64,000 bases of DNA, taken from NCBI RefSeq assembly GCF_000021545.1, contig NC_012438.1, positions 1,238,003-1,302,002 of the forward strand, given 5' to 3'. The DNA comes from Sulfurihydrogenibium azorense Az-Fu1. Its GTDB lineage: Bacteria; Aquificota; Aquificia; Aquificales; Hydrogenothermaceae. Of the stretch, positions 33,742 to 63,091 are shown in pieces; the first letter of the stretch is position 1, and each line of letters begins with the position of its first letter. The notes beneath the pieces are model-generated. The model was not told the origin of the DNA. It saw only the letters and a list, made by a program, of their open reading frames with translations, and ran no database searches. Made by a program: the position numbers and the translations under genes.

Positions 33742-34053
33742 CTAAATAAACTCTTTTAAAAATTCGTAAAGTTCTTGACTTGGTTGTAAGTCAACATAGT
33801 ACGTTCCATCTTCATGTTCTATTCTTAAAGTTTTCCCATCATCTTTAAAAAAGATGTTTGTAAGACCTTTTGAAAAGTACCACTCAAGTTCTTGGGTTAT
33901 TGACTTCATATAGAGAGTAAATCCTCCCGGTCTTTTGGCTACTTTTGTTAGGACAACGGGAGCTTTGTTGACCCAGTCTTCTTCTTCCCATTCAAAAGTG
34001 TTAACGTCTGTTGCTATACCTTTTAGATTAAACTCTTTCTCTATCCAATTCAT
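33742..34053 (-). CDS. Conserved-looking small protein, function unknown
   Basis: Protein of 103 residues, acidic and rich in Trp, Phe and Tyr, without signal peptide or membrane helix. Alternating short beta stretches (GGFTLYMKSI, TNIFFKDDGKTLRIEHEDGTYYVDL) suggest a compact alpha/beta fold. It lies between a LAGLIDADG-like gene and mtaD with gaps of 4 and 10 bases, so it is likely co-transcribed with them. I do not recognise the family. Confidence 0.65.
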   Translation of the reverse strand: MNWIEKEFNLKGIATDVNTFEWEEEDWVNKAPVVLTKVAKRPGGFTLYMKSITQELEWYFSKGLTNIFFKDDGKTLRIEHEDGTYYVDLQPSQELYEFLKEFI

Positions 34054-34057
34054 TTTC

Positions 34058-34483
34058 CTAACCCTCTACAAATTTTCTTACAGAGCTCCTGCCATGTTTT
34101 ACTTTAGTGTTTTTAAACTCCTTTACTACATCTTTCAAGACTTTCTTTCTTCTCTCTTTTTCAAACTGGTTTGAAAATTTTACTTCAAACAATTTTAAAG
34201 CATTTTCAATCTCTTCTCTACTTGAGACGGTATAATCTTTTATAGTTTTTAAAAAATCTCTTGCTTTTTTATGGGTAAGTGTAAGGTAAACTTTTTTTCT
34301 GTTTTTTCTTAAACTCCCTCCAAAAGTTTCCTTTATAGGTTTTAGTGCATCTTGAGATTTTGCCTTTAATGTTATATGAAGATAAATTGATGTTTTTGAC
34401 CTTTGGTCTTTTCTAAAAGAGATTTTTCCTCCACTGTCAAACAAGCCTGCTGTGTAAAAGAGTAGAGCCTGTTTTTCCTCCAT
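34058..34483 (-). CDS. Free-standing LAGLIDADG-fold protein lacking the catalytic acid
   Basis: Protein of 141 residues. Residues 10-23 (YTAGLFDSGGKISF) match the LAGLIDADG helix-and-strand, and the following strands and helices (SIYLHITLKAKSQDALKPIKETFGGSL, YLTLTHKKARDFLKTIKDY) match the rest of a single-motif homing-endonuclease domain. In active enzymes the eighth position of the motif is Asp or Glu; here it is Gly18, so DNA cleavage is unlikely. A basic C-terminal tail of 35 residues follows. It directly abuts the ispG stop and is not inside an intein or intron. A domesticated DNA- or RNA-binding role is inferred. Confidence 0.7.
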   Translation of the reverse strand: MEEKQALLFYTAGLFDSGGKISFRKDQRSKTSIYLHITLKAKSQDALKPIKETFGGSLRKNRKKVYLTLTHKKARDFLKTIKDYTVSSREEIENALKLFEVKFSNQFEKERRKKVLKDVVKEFKNTKVKHGRSSVRKFVEG

Positions 34484-35545
34484 TTACTTTATATCCATCT
34501 GGGATATTTCTTTTAAAAGTTCATCTACCATCTCTTCTTCTGATACTTTTCTGATTGGCTGACCATTTTTAAACAGTATAGCAGACTTATAACCACAGGC
34601 AAGCCCTATATCAGCTTCTTTTGCTTCTCCTATAGCATTTACAACACATCCCATTATAGCAACTTTTAAGGGTTTATCTATTCCTGAGAGTTTTTCTTCA
34701 ACTTGTTTTACTACCTCAGGAAGGTTAACTTCTATTCTTCCACAGGTAGGACAGGAGACTATCTCTACTCCTTTCCTTCTAAGTCCAAGAGATTGAAGTA
34801 TCTGGTATGCAACTTTAACCTCTTCTTCAGGGTCTGCTGTTAATGATACCCTAACAGTATCTCCTATACCTAAGTAAAATAGAATTCCAAGACCTACAGC
34901 TGACTTGATAGATCCTCTATCCTTTGGTCCTGCTTCTGTGATACCAACGTGGAGTGGTATATCTGTTTTTTCTGCAAAAATTTTGTTTGCTTCTACATTT
35001 TGAAGAACATCAGAGCCTTTTATAGAGACTTTAAAGTTTGTAAACCCAACCTTTTCAAAAAACTCTGACCAGTACAGTGCACTTTCTGCCAGAGCCTGGG
35101 CTGACGGATAACCATACTTATCTAAAAGTCTTTTTTCTAGTGAACCTGAGTTAACTCCAAGTCTTACAGCAATGTTTCTTTTTTTACACTCTTGTAAAAT
35201 CTCTTTTATCTTTCCTTCGTCGTTTATATTTCCGGGGTTAAGTCTTATTCCGTGTATACCACTTTCTAAAGACAGCATTGCAATTCTAGGAGAAAAATGT
35301 ATATCTCCTATTACAGGAATAGGTGAGTTTTTAACTATCTCAGGTAGGGCTAAAGCGTCTTCTTCTCTGGGGACTGCAACCCTTATTATCTCACAACCTG
35401 CTTTTGCAAGTCTGTTTATCTGGTTTAAAGTGGCCTCTATATCGTGGGTTTTAGTGTCTGTCATGGACTGGACAACTATAGGAGCTCCATCTCCTATTTT
35501 AACGTTTCCTACAAAAACAGGTCTTGTCTTTCTTCTTTTAATCAA
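34484..35545 (-). CDS. ispG: 4-hydroxy-3-methylbut-2-enyl diphosphate synthase IspG (GcpE)
   Basis: Iron-sulfur enzyme of the MEP isoprenoid pathway, 353 residues, converting ME-cPP to HMBPP. The N-terminal TIM barrel starts RRKTRPVFVGNVKIG and IVVQSMTDT; the C-terminal 4Fe-4S cysteines are in SCPTCGRIEV and IMGCVVNAIGEA. It starts with TTG overlapping the stop of the lytic transglycosylase gene. It has the two-domain bacterial length, without the plant/Chlamydia insertion. Confidence 0.95.
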   Translation of the reverse strand: MIKRRKTRPVFVGNVKIGDGAPIVVQSMTDTKTHDIEATLNQINRLAKAGCEIIRVAVPREEDALALPEIVKNSPIPVIGDIHFSPRIAMLSLESGIHGIRLNPGNINDEGKIKEILQECKKRNIAVRLGVNSGSLEKRLLDKYGYPSAQALAESALYWSEFFEKVGFTNFKVSIKGSDVLQNVEANKIFAEKTDIPLHVGITEAGPKDRGSIKSAVGLGILFYLGIGDTVRVSLTADPEEEVKVAYQILQSLGLRRKGVEIVSCPTCGRIEVNLPEVVKQVEEKLSGIDKPLKVAIMGCVVNAIGEAKEADIGLACGYKSAILFKNGQPIRKVSEEEMVDELLKEISQMDIK

Positions 35546-38301: not shown

Positions 38302-39039
38302 TCACTTTGAATTTATATAACTTAAGACTGCCTTTTTTAAGAAAATAGAAAACGGTGCTTCAGGGTTGTACATTATAATAGGTTTACATTTACCTTGAGA
38401 CTCTGAAACCTGTTTATCTGTTGGTAATATACCTAAAATATTTTTCTTGTTTAGTTCGGCTACAATTAAGCGGGTAAAATCTTCACTTATTAATGTGGGC
38501 TCTGTTTTATTTATAATGGTATATATTTCTGATTTGATTCCACTTTTTTGAATAAATTGTAGAAATATCTTCAAAGAAGAGTAAGTGGCAGGGTCTGGGT
38601 TTAAAACCATTAAAAAGTCTTCTGATACGTTTAAAAGGGTTTCTATGTGTTTTGATATTCTAGGAGGAGTGTCATAAACTACAAAATCAAAGTTAAACTT
38701 GCTAATGTTAGTTAAAAACTTTCCAACTAAGTCAACAGTAAAGCCATCTTCATACAATATAGGATTCTTTATACAAAAAACTCCTGTTGGTAAAAAGTAG
38801 AAATTAGGATTCTCTTTTAAAAAAGGAGTTTTAACCAATCCTTCTGAGTTTTCTCCTTCAAACAGTATCTCAGAAAATCCTTTTTTAAATTCTTGACATA
38901 AAAAAAATGCTAAACTGTTTTGAGGGTCTGTGTCTACAAGAAGGACTTTATAATATTTAGATAGCTCGTAAGCGAAGTTTAAAGCTACTGTAGATTTTCC
39001 TACACCTCCTTTGAAAGATCCTACTGTTATATTAATCAT
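38302..39039 (-). CDS. ParA/MinD-family ATPase, BcsQ-like
   Basis: ATPase of 245 residues with a deviant Walker A (GGVGKST near residues 10-16) and VLLVDTDPQNSLAFFL, both typical of MinD/ParA/BcsQ. It is the last gene of the cellulose operon and overlaps bcsC by four bases (ATGA), so it is made with the Bcs proteins. BcsQ is a MinD-like ATPase required for cellulose secretion and polar placement of the synthase in enterobacteria. Position at the operon end rather than before bcsA is unusual. No parB or replication gene is nearby, which argues against plasmid partition. Confidence 0.7.
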   Translation of the reverse strand: MINITVGSFKGGVGKSTVALNFAYELSKYYKVLLVDTDPQNSLAFFLCQEFKKGFSEILFEGENSEGLVKTPFLKENPNFYFLPTGVFCIKNPILYEDGFTVDLVGKFLTNISKFNFDFVVYDTPPRISKHIETLLNVSEDFLMVLNPDPATYSSLKIFLQFIQKSGIKSEIYTIINKTEPTLISEDFTRLIVAELNKKNILGILPTDKQVSESQGKCKPIIMYNPEAPFSIFLKKAVLSYINSK

Positions 39040-42000
39040 CTCTTATAAATCTCCTTTTCTAATTTGAGTAAATCGTTTTCAGTAATGTTGTATCTTTTAC
39101 CAAAGAAGTATTGTAAGTAAGCAGATGTAAAGATCTCAGAATATTTAGATGTTTTTCTATACTCTCCTGCCAAGTTTAGAAAAATGTTATCTCTAAGCAT
39201 GTACACTCCTCCTAAATAACCATCGAAAGCCAAATCTGTACTTGATTTATCGTTATTTTTTAATAATAAGCCACCTAAAAATACTTTATAGTGAATGCCA
39301 AATCTTTCGTTCATAAAGTAAAAACCTTCAAGCATAGGTGCAACTATAAACATATTTTTTGGTGAGAAGTATCCTCCACAACCGTAGTAGTAGCAATCTT
39401 GGTCTTTAGAGTATTTACTATACAAAAAGAAAAGCCCCAAATAGTCTTTATCTCCAATAAGTTTACCAGCAAAGATTTTAGGTAAAACTATTAAGTTTAT
39501 GTTTGTATTTTCTTGTATGTCTTGTCCTTTTATCTTCTCAATGCTAGCTTGAGTATAAACAAATGATCCTTTTTCATCAATAGATTGTTCGTAAGAAGCC
39601 TTTACTCCTGTTCCTACAGCTCTTCCCCAGTTTTTGTATGAATATGGGTCAGCTGTTCCTACATAGGATAGAATAGAATCTCTTATGGGTCTTTGATACA
39701 ATCCTATGCTTATTTTGTTATTTGTAGTTTTTAACTTTCCTTCAATATCATAAATAAATTTAGAGTTTATACCGTTGTTAACTTTTGGTGTTAAGCCAAC
39801 GTTTCCATTTAAGTCAAAATAGTTACTGTTTAGACTAAACCCTGCAAAAGGTTCTATACCAGAGTAAGATGAAGGTACAGATCTTAAAATAGTTATATTT
39901 TGAGGGGTTCCAAAATTGTTGTAATCCTTTAAAGTTCCGGAATCTAAATTTGTAAAATAAGTTCCCACATAAACCATTAAGTTTTCATTAAAGTAGTAGT
40001 TTAGCTTTAAAAAAGGTGAAGTGTCTGTAAGTTTACTTTTGCCACTCTCTCCACTTTTATCTCTAAACTTTACTCCTAAAACCACATTACTAACATAATC
40101 TTGTTCTTGTAATTTAATTTTTTGTTTAATCTCCTCTATTTCAAGCTTATCTTTTTTTTTCTCAGAGTTATCTTGAGTTAAAAATCTTTCATCTCTATCA
40201 ACTATTTCTACCTCGGAGTTATATTTTCTTTTGTCAAGATCACTTTGATTTAATTTTTCAAATTTATCGTTATTCTCAGTAGTGATATATTCTTTTTTTT
40301 CATTTTGAAGGTGAGAGTTAGAATCTTCATCAAGTATAAAAGGAACTTCTCTTTCTCTTTTTTCTATAGGTGCTGGCTTCTTATAGATAGGTTGTTTTTC
40401 TATATTTTCTTCAACTGGTTTAGTATCATATGTACTTTCATACTTTTTTATGATCCTTTCTGCATCTTTGTATCTTCCCATTGAGTAGTAAATCGTAGCT
40501 AACTCTTTTAAAATATTCTTATCTGTTGATTTTTCTAAACTACTAAGCAAGTTTTCTAAATCTTTAACTTTTTTTAGATTTAAGTAAGTGTATGCTAAAC
40601 CTAACTTTGCGTTTTCATCTTCAGGATTAAACAAAAGTAGTTGGTTAAATATTTTTTCACTACATTTGTAATCTTTGAGATTATAGCAAGACCAACCTAA
40701 AACTTGCAGTAGTGTACTATCGTTCGGGAAGATCTCCAGTCCTTCTAATGCTACTCTTTTTGCCTTTGAGTAATTTTTGGTGTTTAAGTAATAAGAAGCA
40801 AGTTTTCCATAAAATACTTGGTAAAACTCTTTTAATTGATCCTTTTCTTCTTGGGATAAATTCTTCGGATTGATCGTAGATAGTATAGTCTTTACTTGGT
40901 CAAATAGTCCTAGATTGGTAAGTCCATAGAGATATGCTATTTTTATACCAGTGTTATTTGGATCTAATTGGTAAGCTTTTGTTATATACTGGAAAAACTT
41001 TTTTTCATCTTTTCTGTCTTTATAAACATTTGCTAAAATTGGATATGCAACTGGATTATTCTTGTTTAACTCTAAAACTTCTAATGCGTACTTTTCTGCT
41101 AAATCTAAATTCTTTCTTTTATACTCTTCTTGAGCTTTTGATATTAGTATTAACTCTTTAATCTTCTTTTCGTCTTGATCGTAAACTCCTAAAGCTTTTA
41201 GTTTTTCTATTAAATCTAGAGCTTCCTCGTACCTTTGAGTTTTTATATAAACAGCTTTTAAACCCTTTAAAGCATCTATGTTTTTACTGTCTATAAAAAG
41301 AACGTTTCTATAGTAACTTTCAGCTTTTTCAAGATCTTCTTTTTTTAAGTACAGATAACCTAAATTCAAAAGAACGTAAATATTGCTTGGATTTTGTAAA
41401 TATAACTCTTTCAACTTACTTTCTGCAATCTCGTACTCACCTGCATCTATATACTTTTTAATGCTATCTAAATCTTTGTAAAACGACTTACTTTTTAAAG
41501 TAATTCTTTGTTCCTCAGTTAAATAATTCTCAAATTTTCTAAGCTCATCAATTTGATTTGTTTCTATTAGATAATCAATATAAGCTTGAATTACTTTTTT
41601 ATCGTTTGGATACTTGTTATAAAGACTTTTTATTTCCCTTTCAGCTTCTTTTAAATCTTTTTGCCTTAGATATGTATAGAATATACCTATTTTTGACTCT
41701 ACATTATCTTTATAAGATAAGCTTAATTTAAAGTTTTCATAAGCTCTTTTTAGATCATTTTTTTCTAGGTATTCATAACCTAATTTCATATGATAAACAT
41801 AACACGAATCTTTTACCAAATTTTTTGCTTCTGGTTTTACATTTTGAATTTCCTTAAATACACTACAAGCTTTTTCAAAGTTCTCATTTTTTAGATTAAT
41901 TAATCCTATAACAAACTTTGCATCATTTTTATAAGGAGTTTCTTTTAAATTTTCTGCTATTTCTAATGCTTTACTATAATTACCTGCGTTAAGTTCCTCG

Positions 42001-42431
42001 TACATGGGTTCAACTTCTTTTGAAAGATTAAAAGACTTTTTTCCTTCAGATTTTTCTTCCTGTACTACTTTTTTAATAGTTTGGTTTTGTTTATCTTTTA
42101 AAACTGGTGTGTCTTTGGAAGTGCCAATATTTATATTCTCAACTTTTTCGGATTTTTCTTGAGATTTAGCCGGTGATTGGGTAGAGTTTGAAACAGAAGC
42201 TCTAAAACCATTTTTCTCAAGAAAATCTCTAAGCTGTAGAACATAATTTATATTGTCAGACTTTGCACATACATACATTGAAGTATTTAATTTTTGACAT
42301 TTTTTAAATCCTAAATCGTTTAATCTTTGAAAATCTTTATTATCTTTTACAACAACTATGAGTTGATACTCTTGGCTGTAAGCGAGTAAACTAAACGTTA
42401 AAATAGTTAAAATTGTACCTATTTTACGCAT
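39036..42431 (-). CDS. bcsC: Cellulose synthase outer-membrane protein BcsC-like (TPR plus beta-barrel)
   Basis: Protein of 1131 residues with a signal peptide (cleavage near residue 19). A SPOR-like segment lies at about residues 20-80, then some fifteen TPR units (about residues 135-690), a charged linker (690-790) and a C-terminal domain with the alternating pattern of an outer-membrane barrel (for example LKLNYYFNENLMVYVGTYF, IFLNLAGEYRKTSKYS). BcsC TPRs bind peptidoglycan and guide the polymer to the barrel. The length is close to that of E. coli BcsC (about 1150). PelB-like systems are the alternative, but bcsA, bcsB and bcsZ neighbours favour BcsC. Confidence 0.82.
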   Translation of the reverse strand: MRKIGTILTILTFSLLAYSQEYQLIVVVKDNKDFQRLNDLGFKKCQKLNTSMYVCAKSDNINYVLQLRDFLEKNGFRASVSNSTQSPAKSQEKSEKVENINIGTSKDTPVLKDKQNQTIKKVVQEEKSEGKKSFNLSKEVEPMYEELNAGNYSKALEIAENLKETPYKNDAKFVIGLINLKNENFEKACSVFKEIQNVKPEAKNLVKDSCYVYHMKLGYEYLEKNDLKRAYENFKLSLSYKDNVESKIGIFYTYLRQKDLKEAEREIKSLYNKYPNDKKVIQAYIDYLIETNQIDELRKFENYLTEEQRITLKSKSFYKDLDSIKKYIDAGEYEIAESKLKELYLQNPSNIYVLLNLGYLYLKKEDLEKAESYYRNVLFIDSKNIDALKGLKAVYIKTQRYEEALDLIEKLKALGVYDQDEKKIKELILISKAQEEYKRKNLDLAEKYALEVLELNKNNPVAYPILANVYKDRKDEKKFFQYITKAYQLDPNNTGIKIAYLYGLTNLGLFDQVKTILSTINPKNLSQEEKDQLKEFYQVFYGKLASYYLNTKNYSKAKRVALEGLEIFPNDSTLLQVLGWSCYNLKDYKCSEKIFNQLLLFNPEDENAKLGLAYTYLNLKKVKDLENLLSSLEKSTDKNILKELATIYYSMGRYKDAERIIKKYESTYDTKPVEENIEKQPIYKKPAPIEKREREVPFILDEDSNSHLQNEKKEYITTENNDKFEKLNQSDLDKRKYNSEVEIVDRDERFLTQDNSEKKKDKLEIEEIKQKIKLQEQDYVSNVVLGVKFRDKSGESGKSKLTDTSPFLKLNYYFNENLMVYVGTYFTNLDSGTLKDYNNFGTPQNITILRSVPSSYSGIEPFAGFSLNSNYFDLNGNVGLTPKVNNGINSKFIYDIEGKLKTTNNKISIGLYQRPIRDSILSYVGTADPYSYKNWGRAVGTGVKASYEQSIDEKGSFVYTQASIEKIKGQDIQENTNINLIVLPKIFAGKLIGDKDYLGLFFLYSKYSKDQDCYYYGCGGYFSPKNMFIVAPMLEGFYFMNERFGIHYKVFLGGLLLKNNDKSSTDLAFDGYLGGVYMLRDNIFLNLAGEYRKTSKYSEIFTSAYLQYFFGKRYNITENDLLKLEKEIYKR

Positions 42432-42440
42432 TTCATCACC

Positions 42441-43406
42441 TTAATCCAAAAAAAGTTCAAAAGTATCACAAAAATAATTATTTTTATCGTTATTCTTTAA
42501 AACTTTATACCTTTCTAAATATTTTTCATCATTGTACAGTAAATAAAAAAATCTATAAACACAAAATGGTGATTCACTTACTTCTTGCTGTAAACTTCCC
42601 AAGTTATAGTTAAAAGGAATATAACCTTTTGCTTTAAAAAAAGAATCTACTTCAGAGAAAGATGTTTTTAAGTCTTCCAGACTCTCCTTAGCCATGTATG
42701 TATAAGGTATAACTCTGTAAACATCAAGATTAACAGGACTTATAGGAATAAGTTTTTTCTCTATTAAGTTGAATTTCAAGTTTGTGGATAGTATGGTTTT
42801 AAACAAAATGTTTTTAGTATAGTTATACACTCCCTTCCAAAGGTTATCTTTGTAAGACAATTCTTTAAGTATAAAAGTTATATAATAAGAAGGAAATATA
42901 ACTATATCATACTTTTCGTTAGAAAAACCGTAAGTAGCAGGTAAAAGTAAGTAGTTATCTTTCAACTTATTATCTTTTACAATAACTATCAAATTCTTCA
43001 AAGAATTGAAAATTTTCTCTCCTTCATCTTTATATGCCTTATCTCCCCACTTTTCGTATGCCTTCAACAATGCATAAGCAATTAAGAAGTCTCCATCTGT
43101 AGCGTTATTTTTATCTTTTACTTCATCATTCCAAAGCCATGAGAAAAGATAATCTTCTCTTTGAAGGTTTTTCCTAGTCCACTGCCAAAGGTTATCAAAA
43201 GTTGTTTTATCATCGTTTAAAATGGCGAGTATCATACCGTAACCTTGAGATTCAGATGTAACCCGGTTTTCATTGTAAGGATCTATTACATAACTTCCAT
43301 TAGGTATATACTTGTTTTTGTAGTTCTGCCATGTTAGAATCTCCTGTCCATTTGAAAAGCCTAAAAAACCAAGCACTGAAAAAATTATTAACAACCTTTT
43401 CATCAT
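42441..43406 (-). CDS. bcsZ: Periplasmic endoglucanase BcsZ (GH8)
   Basis: Glycoside hydrolase family 8 protein of 321 residues with a signal peptide (MMKRLLIIFSVLGFLGFSNG). The catalytic acid lies in SESQGYGMILAI, and DGDFLIAYALLKAYE contains the conserved Asp of the second motif. BcsZ cuts beta-1,4-glucan in the periplasm and tunes cellulose output. The start overlaps the bcsB stop. A cellulase of this type supports a beta-1,4-glucan product. Confidence 0.88.
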   Translation of the reverse strand: MMKRLLIIFSVLGFLGFSNGQEILTWQNYKNKYIPNGSYVIDPYNENRVTSESQGYGMILAILNDDKTTFDNLWQWTRKNLQREDYLFSWLWNDEVKDKNNATDGDFLIAYALLKAYEKWGDKAYKDEGEKIFNSLKNLIVIVKDNKLKDNYLLLPATYGFSNEKYDIVIFPSYYITFILKELSYKDNLWKGVYNYTKNILFKTILSTNLKFNLIEKKLIPISPVNLDVYRVIPYTYMAKESLEDLKTSFSEVDSFFKAKGYIPFNYNLGSLQQEVSESPFCVYRFFYLLYNDEKYLERYKVLKNNDKNNYFCDTFELFLD

Positions 43407-45544
43407 ATTTCACCGTCTAATCTTCTCTTTTCTCTATAATCTAAAATTTTCTTAACTACCAAAGAAAGAATTATTGTTAAAATTACTGCCGCCAAGGCTA
43501 ACTTCATAGGTGAAAATCCTAATTCAAATATAAGCCTTTCAAAAAATGGTAAGTTCCCTATATAAAATTTTTCACTAATATTATCACTGAAGAACTGGTT
43601 GACATAAAAGTCCCATATAGCAATATCCCCTTTTACCTGCCCAGCAAATTTTGGTATATATAACATATAAGAAGCTTTCTCTATACCATTTAAATTTGGA
43701 GAGTAAAGTACCGTAACAACTTTTTGACTATCGTAAGGTGATTGGAACATTATGAAAAATACTTGATTAGTAAGGGTGTTAAGATAGTTAAGGTTAGCTA
43801 TATTAGATTTATCCTTTTTTAATTTTTTTAAAAAACTACCATTAAAGATACTTTTAAATATAGGTACAGATAAATCTATGTTTTCTGTTATCTTTATAGG
43901 CGATTTAGATTGAAGCTCCAAAGGTATACTTCTTCCTACGTATATTATGTGTTTTGATTTTACATCCTCGTTTATATAACTATAAACTCTGAGGTTAACA
44001 TAAGGGCTTAAAGACCTGGACCCAAGATAGGAAGATAAAGTCAACAAAGAAGATATAATAGTATCATTTTTTTCATTTATTAAAAACACAGTATCACTTA
44101 AATCAGCTTGCATAGAATAGGGGAAGCCTGAATCTACAAAATATTCAAGATAAGGCATCTCAAACCAATATGGCATTTTAGGAATCTCAATGTAAGATTT
44201 AGAAGTAAAGAAAGTACCTCTAAGAGCTTCTATGTTAGGTGATATACAGAAACCTCCTCCAGGTGCCATTATAGCATATTCTATTTTTAATTTATTTAAG
44301 CCTTGTTGTAAAAGGTAAGCAGGTATATCTATATCTTTTTCTTCCATCACTGTTCCATACTTCTTTTCAATCTTTAATGAGGTTATATACTTATCGTTTA
44401 AGTATATATTTATAACTGAATCCTCTCTGGCACCAGCTCCATAGTTGTATGCAAAATGAAACTTTATCTTTTTATTTTTCTGAATATATAGTCCTTGAGG
44501 TATTCTAAACTCTACTACTGCAGGTGGTGGATATATACCTTTAAATTTAAAATCATCATAACCTAATTCACTTAAGTAAACTTTTTTGCCAAGAGGTATA
44601 AACATAGCGGTGTTGTAAATTGATAAATCTGCTTGTTTTATATTTAGAATGTTATAATCTTTTCCTGTGTATACATTTTCCTTAACACTCATAAAACTGT
44701 TTAAACTCTTTAAAATTCGATCATAACTGTTTCCTGTTATTACGACAACAGCTTTTGTAATATCAAAAGGATTTGGGTATACAGCTATATCTGGTATTCT
44801 TCTTTCATCTTGAAGATTTAAAATCTGTTTCACAAAGCTTTTAGATCCTATTATAAAAACATCTTTATCTTCAGGAATTTTATTTAAATAATCTATCTTT
44901 ACTCTCCTATACCTTAAGTAGCTACCTATGTATCCAGCAAGTCTTGCTGCTAATGATAGATAAGAGTCTTCTTTATTCTCCGTAATTATACCTACATTTA
45001 TAGGGTTAAAAAGTTTTTGGTCAAGTACGTAGTCTCTTATTAGTAATGTGTCCTCCAAGATAGGTTTTTCATCGTAAGTAATTTTTATGTAGCTATTTTC
45101 TAAATCTAATTTAGACCAAAGTTCCGGACTTCCTTCAAACTCACAACAGTTTAAGCAATAATGATGAATAGCAGATATTTTTAAATCATTAAACGGTTCT
45201 AAATTTACGGTAGGTAGATTAGTTTCTATTATCATTATATCTAGTAGTGGATCAAAAGGTTTTTGTAAAACAAGCTTATTGTTAAAAAACAATGCTATAC
45301 TACTTCTTTCTTTAACTAACGCTCTAGATTTTTCAACTTCTAAGTGTAGAAATAAATTTTTAACCAAATACCTTGAAGATATGGGAATTTTCACTGTATA
45401 CTCAGCTTCTATACTTCTTAACATGGGATTTTGAAAAGCAATATCTTTAAGAGGAACTACTATTTCTTTACCGTAAGCACTGTTAATAAGAAAAGTAAAA
45501 AAACTAAGCCATACTAAATATACAATAGTCACCTTTTTCTTCAT
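43403..45544 (-). CDS. bcsB: Cellulose synthase periplasmic subunit BcsB
   Basis: Protein of 713 residues from the ATG at 45544 (a GTG two codons earlier at 45550 is possible). A signal peptide is followed by alternating carbohydrate-binding and flavodoxin-like domains and a single C-terminal membrane helix (MKLALAAVILTIILSLVVKKIL, about residues 681-702) that anchors it beside BcsA. The segment LSAIHHYCLNCCEFEGSPELW resembles the family's CxD-box region. It overlaps the bcsD-like gene upstream and bcsZ downstream. Confidence 0.88.
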   Translation of the reverse strand: MKKKVTIVYLVWLSFFTFLINSAYGKEIVVPLKDIAFQNPMLRSIEAEYTVKIPISSRYLVKNLFLHLEVEKSRALVKERSSIALFFNNKLVLQKPFDPLLDIMIIETNLPTVNLEPFNDLKISAIHHYCLNCCEFEGSPELWSKLDLENSYIKITYDEKPILEDTLLIRDYVLDQKLFNPINVGIITENKEDSYLSLAARLAGYIGSYLRYRRVKIDYLNKIPEDKDVFIIGSKSFVKQILNLQDERRIPDIAVYPNPFDITKAVVVITGNSYDRILKSLNSFMSVKENVYTGKDYNILNIKQADLSIYNTAMFIPLGKKVYLSELGYDDFKFKGIYPPPAVVEFRIPQGLYIQKNKKIKFHFAYNYGAGAREDSVINIYLNDKYITSLKIEKKYGTVMEEKDIDIPAYLLQQGLNKLKIEYAIMAPGGGFCISPNIEALRGTFFTSKSYIEIPKMPYWFEMPYLEYFVDSGFPYSMQADLSDTVFLINEKNDTIISSLLTLSSYLGSRSLSPYVNLRVYSYINEDVKSKHIIYVGRSIPLELQSKSPIKITENIDLSVPIFKSIFNGSFLKKLKKDKSNIANLNYLNTLTNQVFFIMFQSPYDSQKVVTVLYSPNLNGIEKASYMLYIPKFAGQVKGDIAIWDFYVNQFFSDNISEKFYIGNLPFFERLIFELGFSPMKLALAAVILTIILSLVVKKILDYREKRRLDGEI

Positions 45545-61661: not shown

Positions 61662-63091
61662 GTTTTTCTCCCGACTATGAGGGAATTGAAGTTTCTTCAT
61701 CTTTAAGGTAAAAATTCAAACCTGTCGTTTTTCTCCCGACTATGAGGGAATTGAAGCTTCCTTTTTAAACGGTTTGATTCCATAGATTTCATCGTTTTTC
61801 TCCCGACTATGAGGGAATTGAAGACATCCTGAGTGGATTCTGTTGTATCCTTTATCATGGTTTTTCTCCCGACTATGAGGGAATTGAAGCTTTTATTTTT
61901 TCATCTTTAGTAACTATAAACACGCCGTTTTTCTCCCGACTATGAGGGAATTGAAGTAACCTTTTTCATAAAAAGATATTGTTTTTATATCTGTTTTTCT
62001 CCCGACTATGAGGGAATTGAAGCCATAATCGTAAGACAGAAAAATATTTTCTGTCCCTACGTTTTTCTCCCGACTATGAGGGAATTGAAGTTCTTTTGAA
62101 TATATATACTTCAGTTTGAAGTCAAAGTTTTTCTCCCGACTATGAGGGAATTGAAGTTTTTCTGATTTTGTTATAATGAAGGAGCCAGTATATGTTTTTC
62201 TCCCGACTATGAGGGAATTGAAGTTGTTTGTTTTGTCAGATAGATTGCTAACAACTTCTCGTTTTTCTCCCGACTATGAGGGAATTGAAGTTTGACTCCA
62301 GTAAACGGCACTATAGAGAGTACAAAGTTTTTCTCCCGACTATGAGGGAATTGAAGGCAGTTGCATACATCAATTCCGTCACTATCTTGTGGGTTTTTCT
62401 CCCGACTATGAGGGAATTGAAGAAAAGATTGCTTGATAGGAACCATGTTTTTTTAATTGTTTTTCTCCCGACTATGAGGGAATTGAAGCGTTTTTTGGAT
62501 CGCAATGAGTTACATACTCAACGGGTTTTTCTCCCGACTATGAGGGAATTGAAGATCACCTCCTTTATTAAATAATTTCTACTGCTGGTTAGTTTTTCTC
62601 CCGACTATGAGGGAATTGAAGACTTTCCTATATACACTCCCCCGATTATTGCTTCTTCTGTTTTTCTCCCGACTATGAGGGAATTGAAGCACTATTGTAT
62701 TTTTAGAATCACAATTTGTACTTAGGGGTTTTTCTCCCGACTATGAGGGAATTGAAGGCAAATGCTGGCATGAACGCTGTCAAGGCCAAGCCCTTGTTTT
62801 TCTCCCGACTATGAGGGAATTGAAGTATTTCCCATTTGGAAATAGATGGGTAGATAAATTCGTTTTTCTCCCGACTATGAGGGAATTGAAGTGACGAAAA
62901 CAATGTTGTTATTCGCGAGAACGAACAGTTTTTCTCCCGACTATGAGGGAATTGAAGTATACTCGAATTGGGTGGTTGGGGTCCTCCAGTTCCGTTTTTC
63001 TCCCGACTATGAGGGAATTGAAGCTTCATACATGATACTACCTCCTATAAATATAAAAATTGTTTTTCTCCCGACTATGAGGGAATTTTTT
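61662..63091 (+). CRISPR. CRISPR array, 22 repeats and 21 spacers
   Basis: The 30-base repeat begins GTTTTTCTCCCGAC and ends GAGGGAATTGAAG; 21 copies are identical. Repeat starts are 61662, 61727, 61794, 61860, 61927, 61993, 62061, 62127, 62194, 62261, 62327, 62393, 62459, 62525, 62592, 62660, 62728, 62796, 62862, 62928, 62994 and 63062. The last copy keeps only its first 26 bases. Spacers are 35-38 bases and all different. The ATTGAAG end resembles the 8-base 5' handle of class-1 (type I or III) crRNAs, which fixes the plus-strand orientation. The degenerate end lies at 63062, so new spacers should be added near 61662. No cas gene lies in the window, so the subtype cannot be named. Confidence 0.97.

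Follow-up and report, generated by a model that had tools for sequence, protein, structure and literature searches.

The single-motif homodimeric endonucleases of rRNA introns, I-CreI, I-CvuI and I-MsoI, are among the known proteins closest to the one considered here. In I-CreI the helix bearing the LAGLIDADG motif forms the dimer interface, and Asp20 is the catalytic aspartate, one being supplied by each monomer (PMC6035192). Phages carry free-standing LAGLIDADG endonucleases, which are stand-alone single domains of about 140–160 residues (PHROG 5046; Microbacterium phage Pumpernickel gp170; Cyanophage PP U5PVP4). To our knowledge, domesticated homing endonucleases are rare, with WhiA and HO as examples. 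WhiA (DUF199) couples a degenerate LAGLIDADG domain, kept by the host with its catalytic residues lost, to a separate C-terminal helix-turn-helix (HTH) that binds DNA (PMC3781837). Yeast HO is a stand-alone domesticated LAGLIDADG protein, and the yeast WHO elements sit beside a single host gene, FBA1 (PMC7282813). HO still cuts, however, and belongs to another subfamily, related to intein–zinc finger fusion proteins.

The window analysed here, a stretch of 64 000 nucleotides from Sulfurihydrogenibium azorense Az-Fu1, contains a gene for a 141-residue protein which shares with I-CreI, I-CvuI and I-MsoI the full-length fold, the LAGLIDADG helix and the C-terminal segment (Table 1). Its family differs from these enzymes in lacking the catalytic acid in all members and in lying outside any intron. 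Domestication of this protein without cutting is well supported.

Table 1. Features of the ispG-linked LAGLIDADG locus (window coordinates).
Feature	Position	Strand	Basis or remark
Gene for the 141-residue acid-less I-CreI-type LAGLIDADG protein	34058..34483	-	ORF and translation, PF00961, orthologues in 18 genomes, purifying selection
LAGLIDADG motif YTAGLFDSGG, residues 10-19	34427..34456	-	HMMER alignment with I-CreI
Gly18 codon, position of the metal-binding acid (Asp20 of I-CreI)	34430..34432	- ('tcc' on +)	
C-terminal segment, residues 101-141	34061..34183	-	Column conservation, structure alignment, pN/pS
ispG	34484..35545	-	Invariant upstream neighbour of the LAGLIDADG gene
Conserved 103-residue gene	33742..34053	-	Next gene downstream of ispG in most genomes without the LAGLIDADG gene

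Genomic setting and distribution

A preliminary description of the locus had placed a stand-alone gene directly after ispG, in neither an intein nor an intron, and this holds. The ATG (34481–34483) abuts the ispG TAA (34484–34486) with a gap of 0, the stop lies at 34058–34060 and the 103-residue gene starts 4 bases after it. The gene is outside any intein, and a search of this genome and of further family members revealed no group I introns. The N-terminus of the protein is MEEKQALLFYTAGLFDSGGKISFRKD; the protein and its orthologues have a pI of 9.7–10.2 and a net charge of +11 to +19. NCBIfam provided no name for the protein, the product of the 103-residue gene gave no match in a Pfam scan and LAGLIDADG is absent from the papers listed for the genera concerned.

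Of the 136 genomes of the phylum, 18 yielded orthologues in a family-profile search; these 18 belong to a single family, the Hydrogenothermaceae-type Aquificota, and a scan of a genome collection gave matches only in Hydrogenothermaceae or Aquificota records. Searches of viral contigs, plasmids and non-family genomes by conserved motif or tblastn confirmed none beyond distant phage matches. The gene is directly behind ispG with an open frame in every one of the 18 genomes. The conserved gene order is ispA-panD-mltD-ispG-(LAGLIDADG gene)-103-residue gene. Genus g8 displays the empty site, with the 103-residue gene directly after ispG, while in genus g6 ispA, panD, mltD and the 103-residue gene have dispersed and ispG and the LAGLIDADG gene are still paired. 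This pairing in g6 hints at local action, but two genes with no function in common could also be kept adjacent by translational coupling or by inertia of the operon. Two hallmarks of an active homing endonuclease are absent: an Asp or Glu at the end of the motif (18 genomes) and an intron, intein or mobile setting, the site behind ispG being fixed. A recently inserted mobile copy is ruled out by synteny, empty sites and distribution.

In an IspG tree rooted on other families the gene-bearing lineages are basal, with weak support for the deep branches. The simplest reading is therefore presence in the family ancestor and several losses, so that the gene was probably ancestral and then lost a few times. 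Since whole clades of the family live without it, the gene is not essential; no gene relics were seen in the gaps between ispG and the 103-residue gene in genomes that lack it. The C-terminal segment, which aligns with the C-terminal end of I-CreI, is mostly missing in three lineages (G015, G012 and G019). The G019 copy (L018) is truncated, fast-evolving and possibly in decay; an in-frame TAG occurs in its stretch corresponding to the C-terminal part.

Fold and loss of the catalytic acid

The protein matches Pfam LAGLIDADG_1 (PF00961) with 24.8 bits against a cut-off of 23.1 (E=4e-5), and an HMMER search of PDB sequences with the family profile returned I-CreI entries (E about 1e-4). An AlphaFold model of the window protein, built with 17 orthologues, shows helices and strands in the order typical of LAGLIDADG proteins (pLDDT 78.8); that of the G017 orthologue (pLDDT 88.8, pTM 0.82) is more confident in its C-terminal part. 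The predicted fold is alpha-beta-beta-alpha-beta-beta-alpha with a LAGLIDADG helix (AlphaFold, VIA). Foldseek ranked I-CreI first for the window model (E about 2e-6), and VIA gave I-CvuI as its best match (Z 13.7, 137 residues, 3.2 Å) and I-CreI as that of the G017 model (Z 15.0, 134 residues, 2.6 Å), in both cases over the full length; the structure alignment sets residues 1–140 on residues 8–152 of I-CreI. The LAGLIDADG fold originally proposed is therefore confirmed by two models that match I-CreI-type endonucleases from end to end, in agreement with the Pfam and PDB profile searches, and structure prediction gave no different fold. The motif forms the end of a helix (residues 2–18 in the AlphaFold model) that corresponds to the dimer-interface helix of I-CreI.

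The protein had also been described as a domain followed by a basic tail. The C-terminus is indeed basic, but it is not an added tail: because the VIA matches span the full length, it represents the C-terminal region of I-CreI, and it is constrained like the core, with conserved F103, E108, R111 and S134. One of the structure matches listed (2o7m) describes in its title the C-terminal loop of I-CreI as essential both for binding DNA and for cleaving it.

The HMMER profile alignment places YiaglldscG of the family on YLAGFVDGDG of I-CreI, and position 18 therefore corresponds to Asp20. The assignment of Gly18 to the site of the metal-binding acid is thereby upheld. Across the 18 genomes, which give 17 distinct sequences, position 18 holds Cys, Ser, Gly or Thr and in no case Asp or Glu, so the loss is common to every orthologue found. 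In the same alignment, the position of Gln47 of I-CreI is hydrophobic in the family and that of Lys98 is Lys in most members and Ser in the window protein. Judged from its sequence, the 141-residue protein almost certainly does not cut. Cys is the commonest residue at position 18 (seven of the 16 aligned sequences) and Cys17 occurs in three of the four Gly18 copies; in an I-CreI-type dimer a pair of such residues would be near each other, and a redox or metal role is possible.

Phage LAGLIDADG endonucleases are the nearest relatives by PHROG profile (the phage family PHROG 5046 hits 16 of 17 orthologues, best E 1.4e-10), by tblastn (E=2e-4) and by a fold search among viral proteins (TM 0.72). 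All five related phage proteins examined, which were found by tblastn with acid-less queries, keep the acid as E or D (Youna2, GLFDGEG; Pumpernickel, GFFDGEG; WilliamBoone, GMIDADG; Anedea, GLFDGEG; J2-1, GLFDADG), whereas the chromosomal, ispG-linked family never does. The acid is likewise kept (E) in eight of eight 23S-intron-type endonucleases of f2, a sister family in the Aquificota (GFVDGEG or GLVEGEG and variants), a set that was found via the Pfam model and may favour intact motifs because the model motif includes the acid. Descent of the ispG-linked family from these f2 endonucleases is not supported (hhalign probability 10%), the phage proteins being the better match.

The f2 LAGLIDADG_1 genes (L052/L062 in genome G083, L051 and L053–L057) appear to lie in 23S rRNA introns, judging from their setting and from weak matches to group I introns next to some of them; G083 has two different LAGLIDADG_1 types about 700 bases apart. 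PHROG 5046 is labelled 'HNH endonuclease', a label that is probably wrong given its match to the LAGLIDADG family over nearly the whole length. A Gordonia phage protein annotated as an HNH endonuclease carries the motif GMIDADG.

The proposed parallel with WhiA-type regulators survives as an analogy only. Both proteins represent a LAGLIDADG fold kept by the host after loss of the catalytic residues, but the 141-residue protein is one I-CreI-type domain whose nearest relatives are phage and intron endonucleases. Pfam and NCBIfam scans detected neither an HTH nor a WhiA family in it, and the I-CreI-type match covers all of it. The best 50 structure matches listed are all homing endonucleases or variants; the absence of WhiA from this list is uninformative either way.

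Selection on the retained gene

Retention of the open frame had been taken as a sign of selection, and the selection is purifying. Nei–Gojobori dN/dS is 0.21, 0.07, 0.10 and 0.25 in the four informative pairs, with a significant synonymous excess in each (Fisher p 1.9e-9, 8e-25, 8e-21 and 1.3e-9), dS being near saturation in some pairs; the most similar pair, G002/G004, differs at too few sites (p 0.08). The values for ispG are 0.02–0.075, and those for the LAGLIDADG gene are about two to ten times as high. The pN/pS of the tail is about as low as that of the core. In an alignment of 16 sequences, which omits the truncated G019 copy, Y10, K25, S32, G55, G56, H71, K73, F103, E108 and R111 are invariant, as is S134 where present. 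Ser40 and Arg68 of I-CreI contact DNA; by alignment, S32 falls on Ser40 and residue 59 (R59 in the window protein; R or K in 13 of 16) on Arg68.

Proposed function and alternatives

Because the cutting residue has been lost and the gene has nevertheless been kept beside ispG, the host probably uses it anew, for DNA binding. An I-CreI-type protein without the acid can bind DNA, since a complex titled I-CreI(D20N)/DNA has been deposited (1t9i, among the matches listed). We propose that an ancestor of the Aquificota family acquired, directly behind ispG and ahead of the following gene, a free-standing I-CreI-type homing endonuclease like those that phages carry today; the enzyme then lost the metal-binding acid, and the host retained it. 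The protein would form a homodimer through its LAGLIDADG helices, and the two β-sheets would contact, without cutting, a pseudo-palindromic stretch of DNA about 20 bp long. Tight DNA binding of this kind would make a local transcription regulator the most likely role, possibly one acting on its own ispG operon. A DNA binder derived from an endonuclease, devoid of the acid and kept by the host is probably the best explanation of the data. Sequence-specific DNA binding is fairly probable, and a homodimer on a site of roughly 20 bp is its likely form. Regulation of the ispG operon is a guess, and a doubtful one. No candidate target site was found. The one conserved promoter block examined, TAGATTAATTTAT upstream of ispG in genus g6, was rejected as not specific: it has single occurrences at unrelated genes in G000 and G006 and is also found in a genome without the LAGLIDADG gene.

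The protein might instead bind RNA, as LAGLIDADG maturases do, the fold having been kept for rRNA, tRNA or ispG mRNA after loss of endonuclease activity. The very basic character of the protein is compatible with this, and LAGLIDADG maturases use a surface other than the DNA-binding one and include single-function forms (PMC3943268). However, the fold that has been kept is the DNA-binding fold of I-CreI, and since the genome and its family yielded no group I intron, a classical maturase substrate is lacking, which rules out a maturase of a local group I intron. Binding of RNA appears unlikely. A protein–protein or structural role, for example with IspG, in which nucleic-acid binding has been dropped, would account for the constant adjacency to ispG even in genus g6 after the break-up of the operon; the high positive charge and the C-terminal segment kept in most members fit nucleic acid better and render this role improbable. 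It is very improbable that the protein is a guard, that is, a dead endonuclease that still occupies its ancestral homing site (within ispG or at another locus) and keeps out active homing endonucleases of phages or introns. Its relatives are phage endonucleases, and f2 carries 23S-intron-type LAGLIDADG genes while no group I introns were found in the gene-bearing family, but introns were not found in family members without the gene either, so that gene and intron show no correlation. A slowly decaying relic without host function, for which the truncated, fast copy in G019 and the several independent losses might speak, is scarcely tenable: decay is contradicted, except perhaps in G019, by the four independent pairs, whose dN/dS lies far below 1 (p no higher than 1.9e-9), and the open frame in 18 of 18 genomes and the invariant charged or polar residues K25, S32, H71, K73 and R111 also stand against it.

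The acid has disappeared from all known copies in one bacterial family while the rest of an I-CreI-type protein has remained under purifying selection. On the preferred reading, that of a host-kept, non-cutting DNA binder, such a case would illustrate how a selfish DNA cutter is turned into a DNA-binding protein of the host when nothing but the acid is lost; WhiA, which carries an added HTH, offers no such illustration. We suggest only tentatively that this is a second, independent bacterial domestication of LAGLIDADG, in which the I-CreI-type homodimer itself, with no further DNA-binding domain, acts as a site-specific, non-cutting DNA-binding regulator tied to the ispG isoprenoid operon. The small size of the protein, its thermophilic source and its likeness to a well-studied meganuclease scaffold make both the binding site and the dimer structure readily testable.

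Three other features of the window may be recorded. A minus-strand gene run at 38302–48358 resembles, judging from translations, a cellulose-synthesis locus, with a ParA-like ATPase, a TPR/outer-membrane protein, a glycoside hydrolase and BcsB-like and BcsA-like proteins. An Rpn-family nuclease/transposase-like gene on the plus strand (56970–57986) contains an internal GIQQGIQQGIQKG repeat, and a similar, shortened copy is present in the same genome (L150:1512-2162). At 61927–63090 lies a CRISPR array in which about 18 copies of the 30-base repeat GTTTTTCTCCCGACTATGAGGGAATTGAAG are separated by spacers about 36 bases long.
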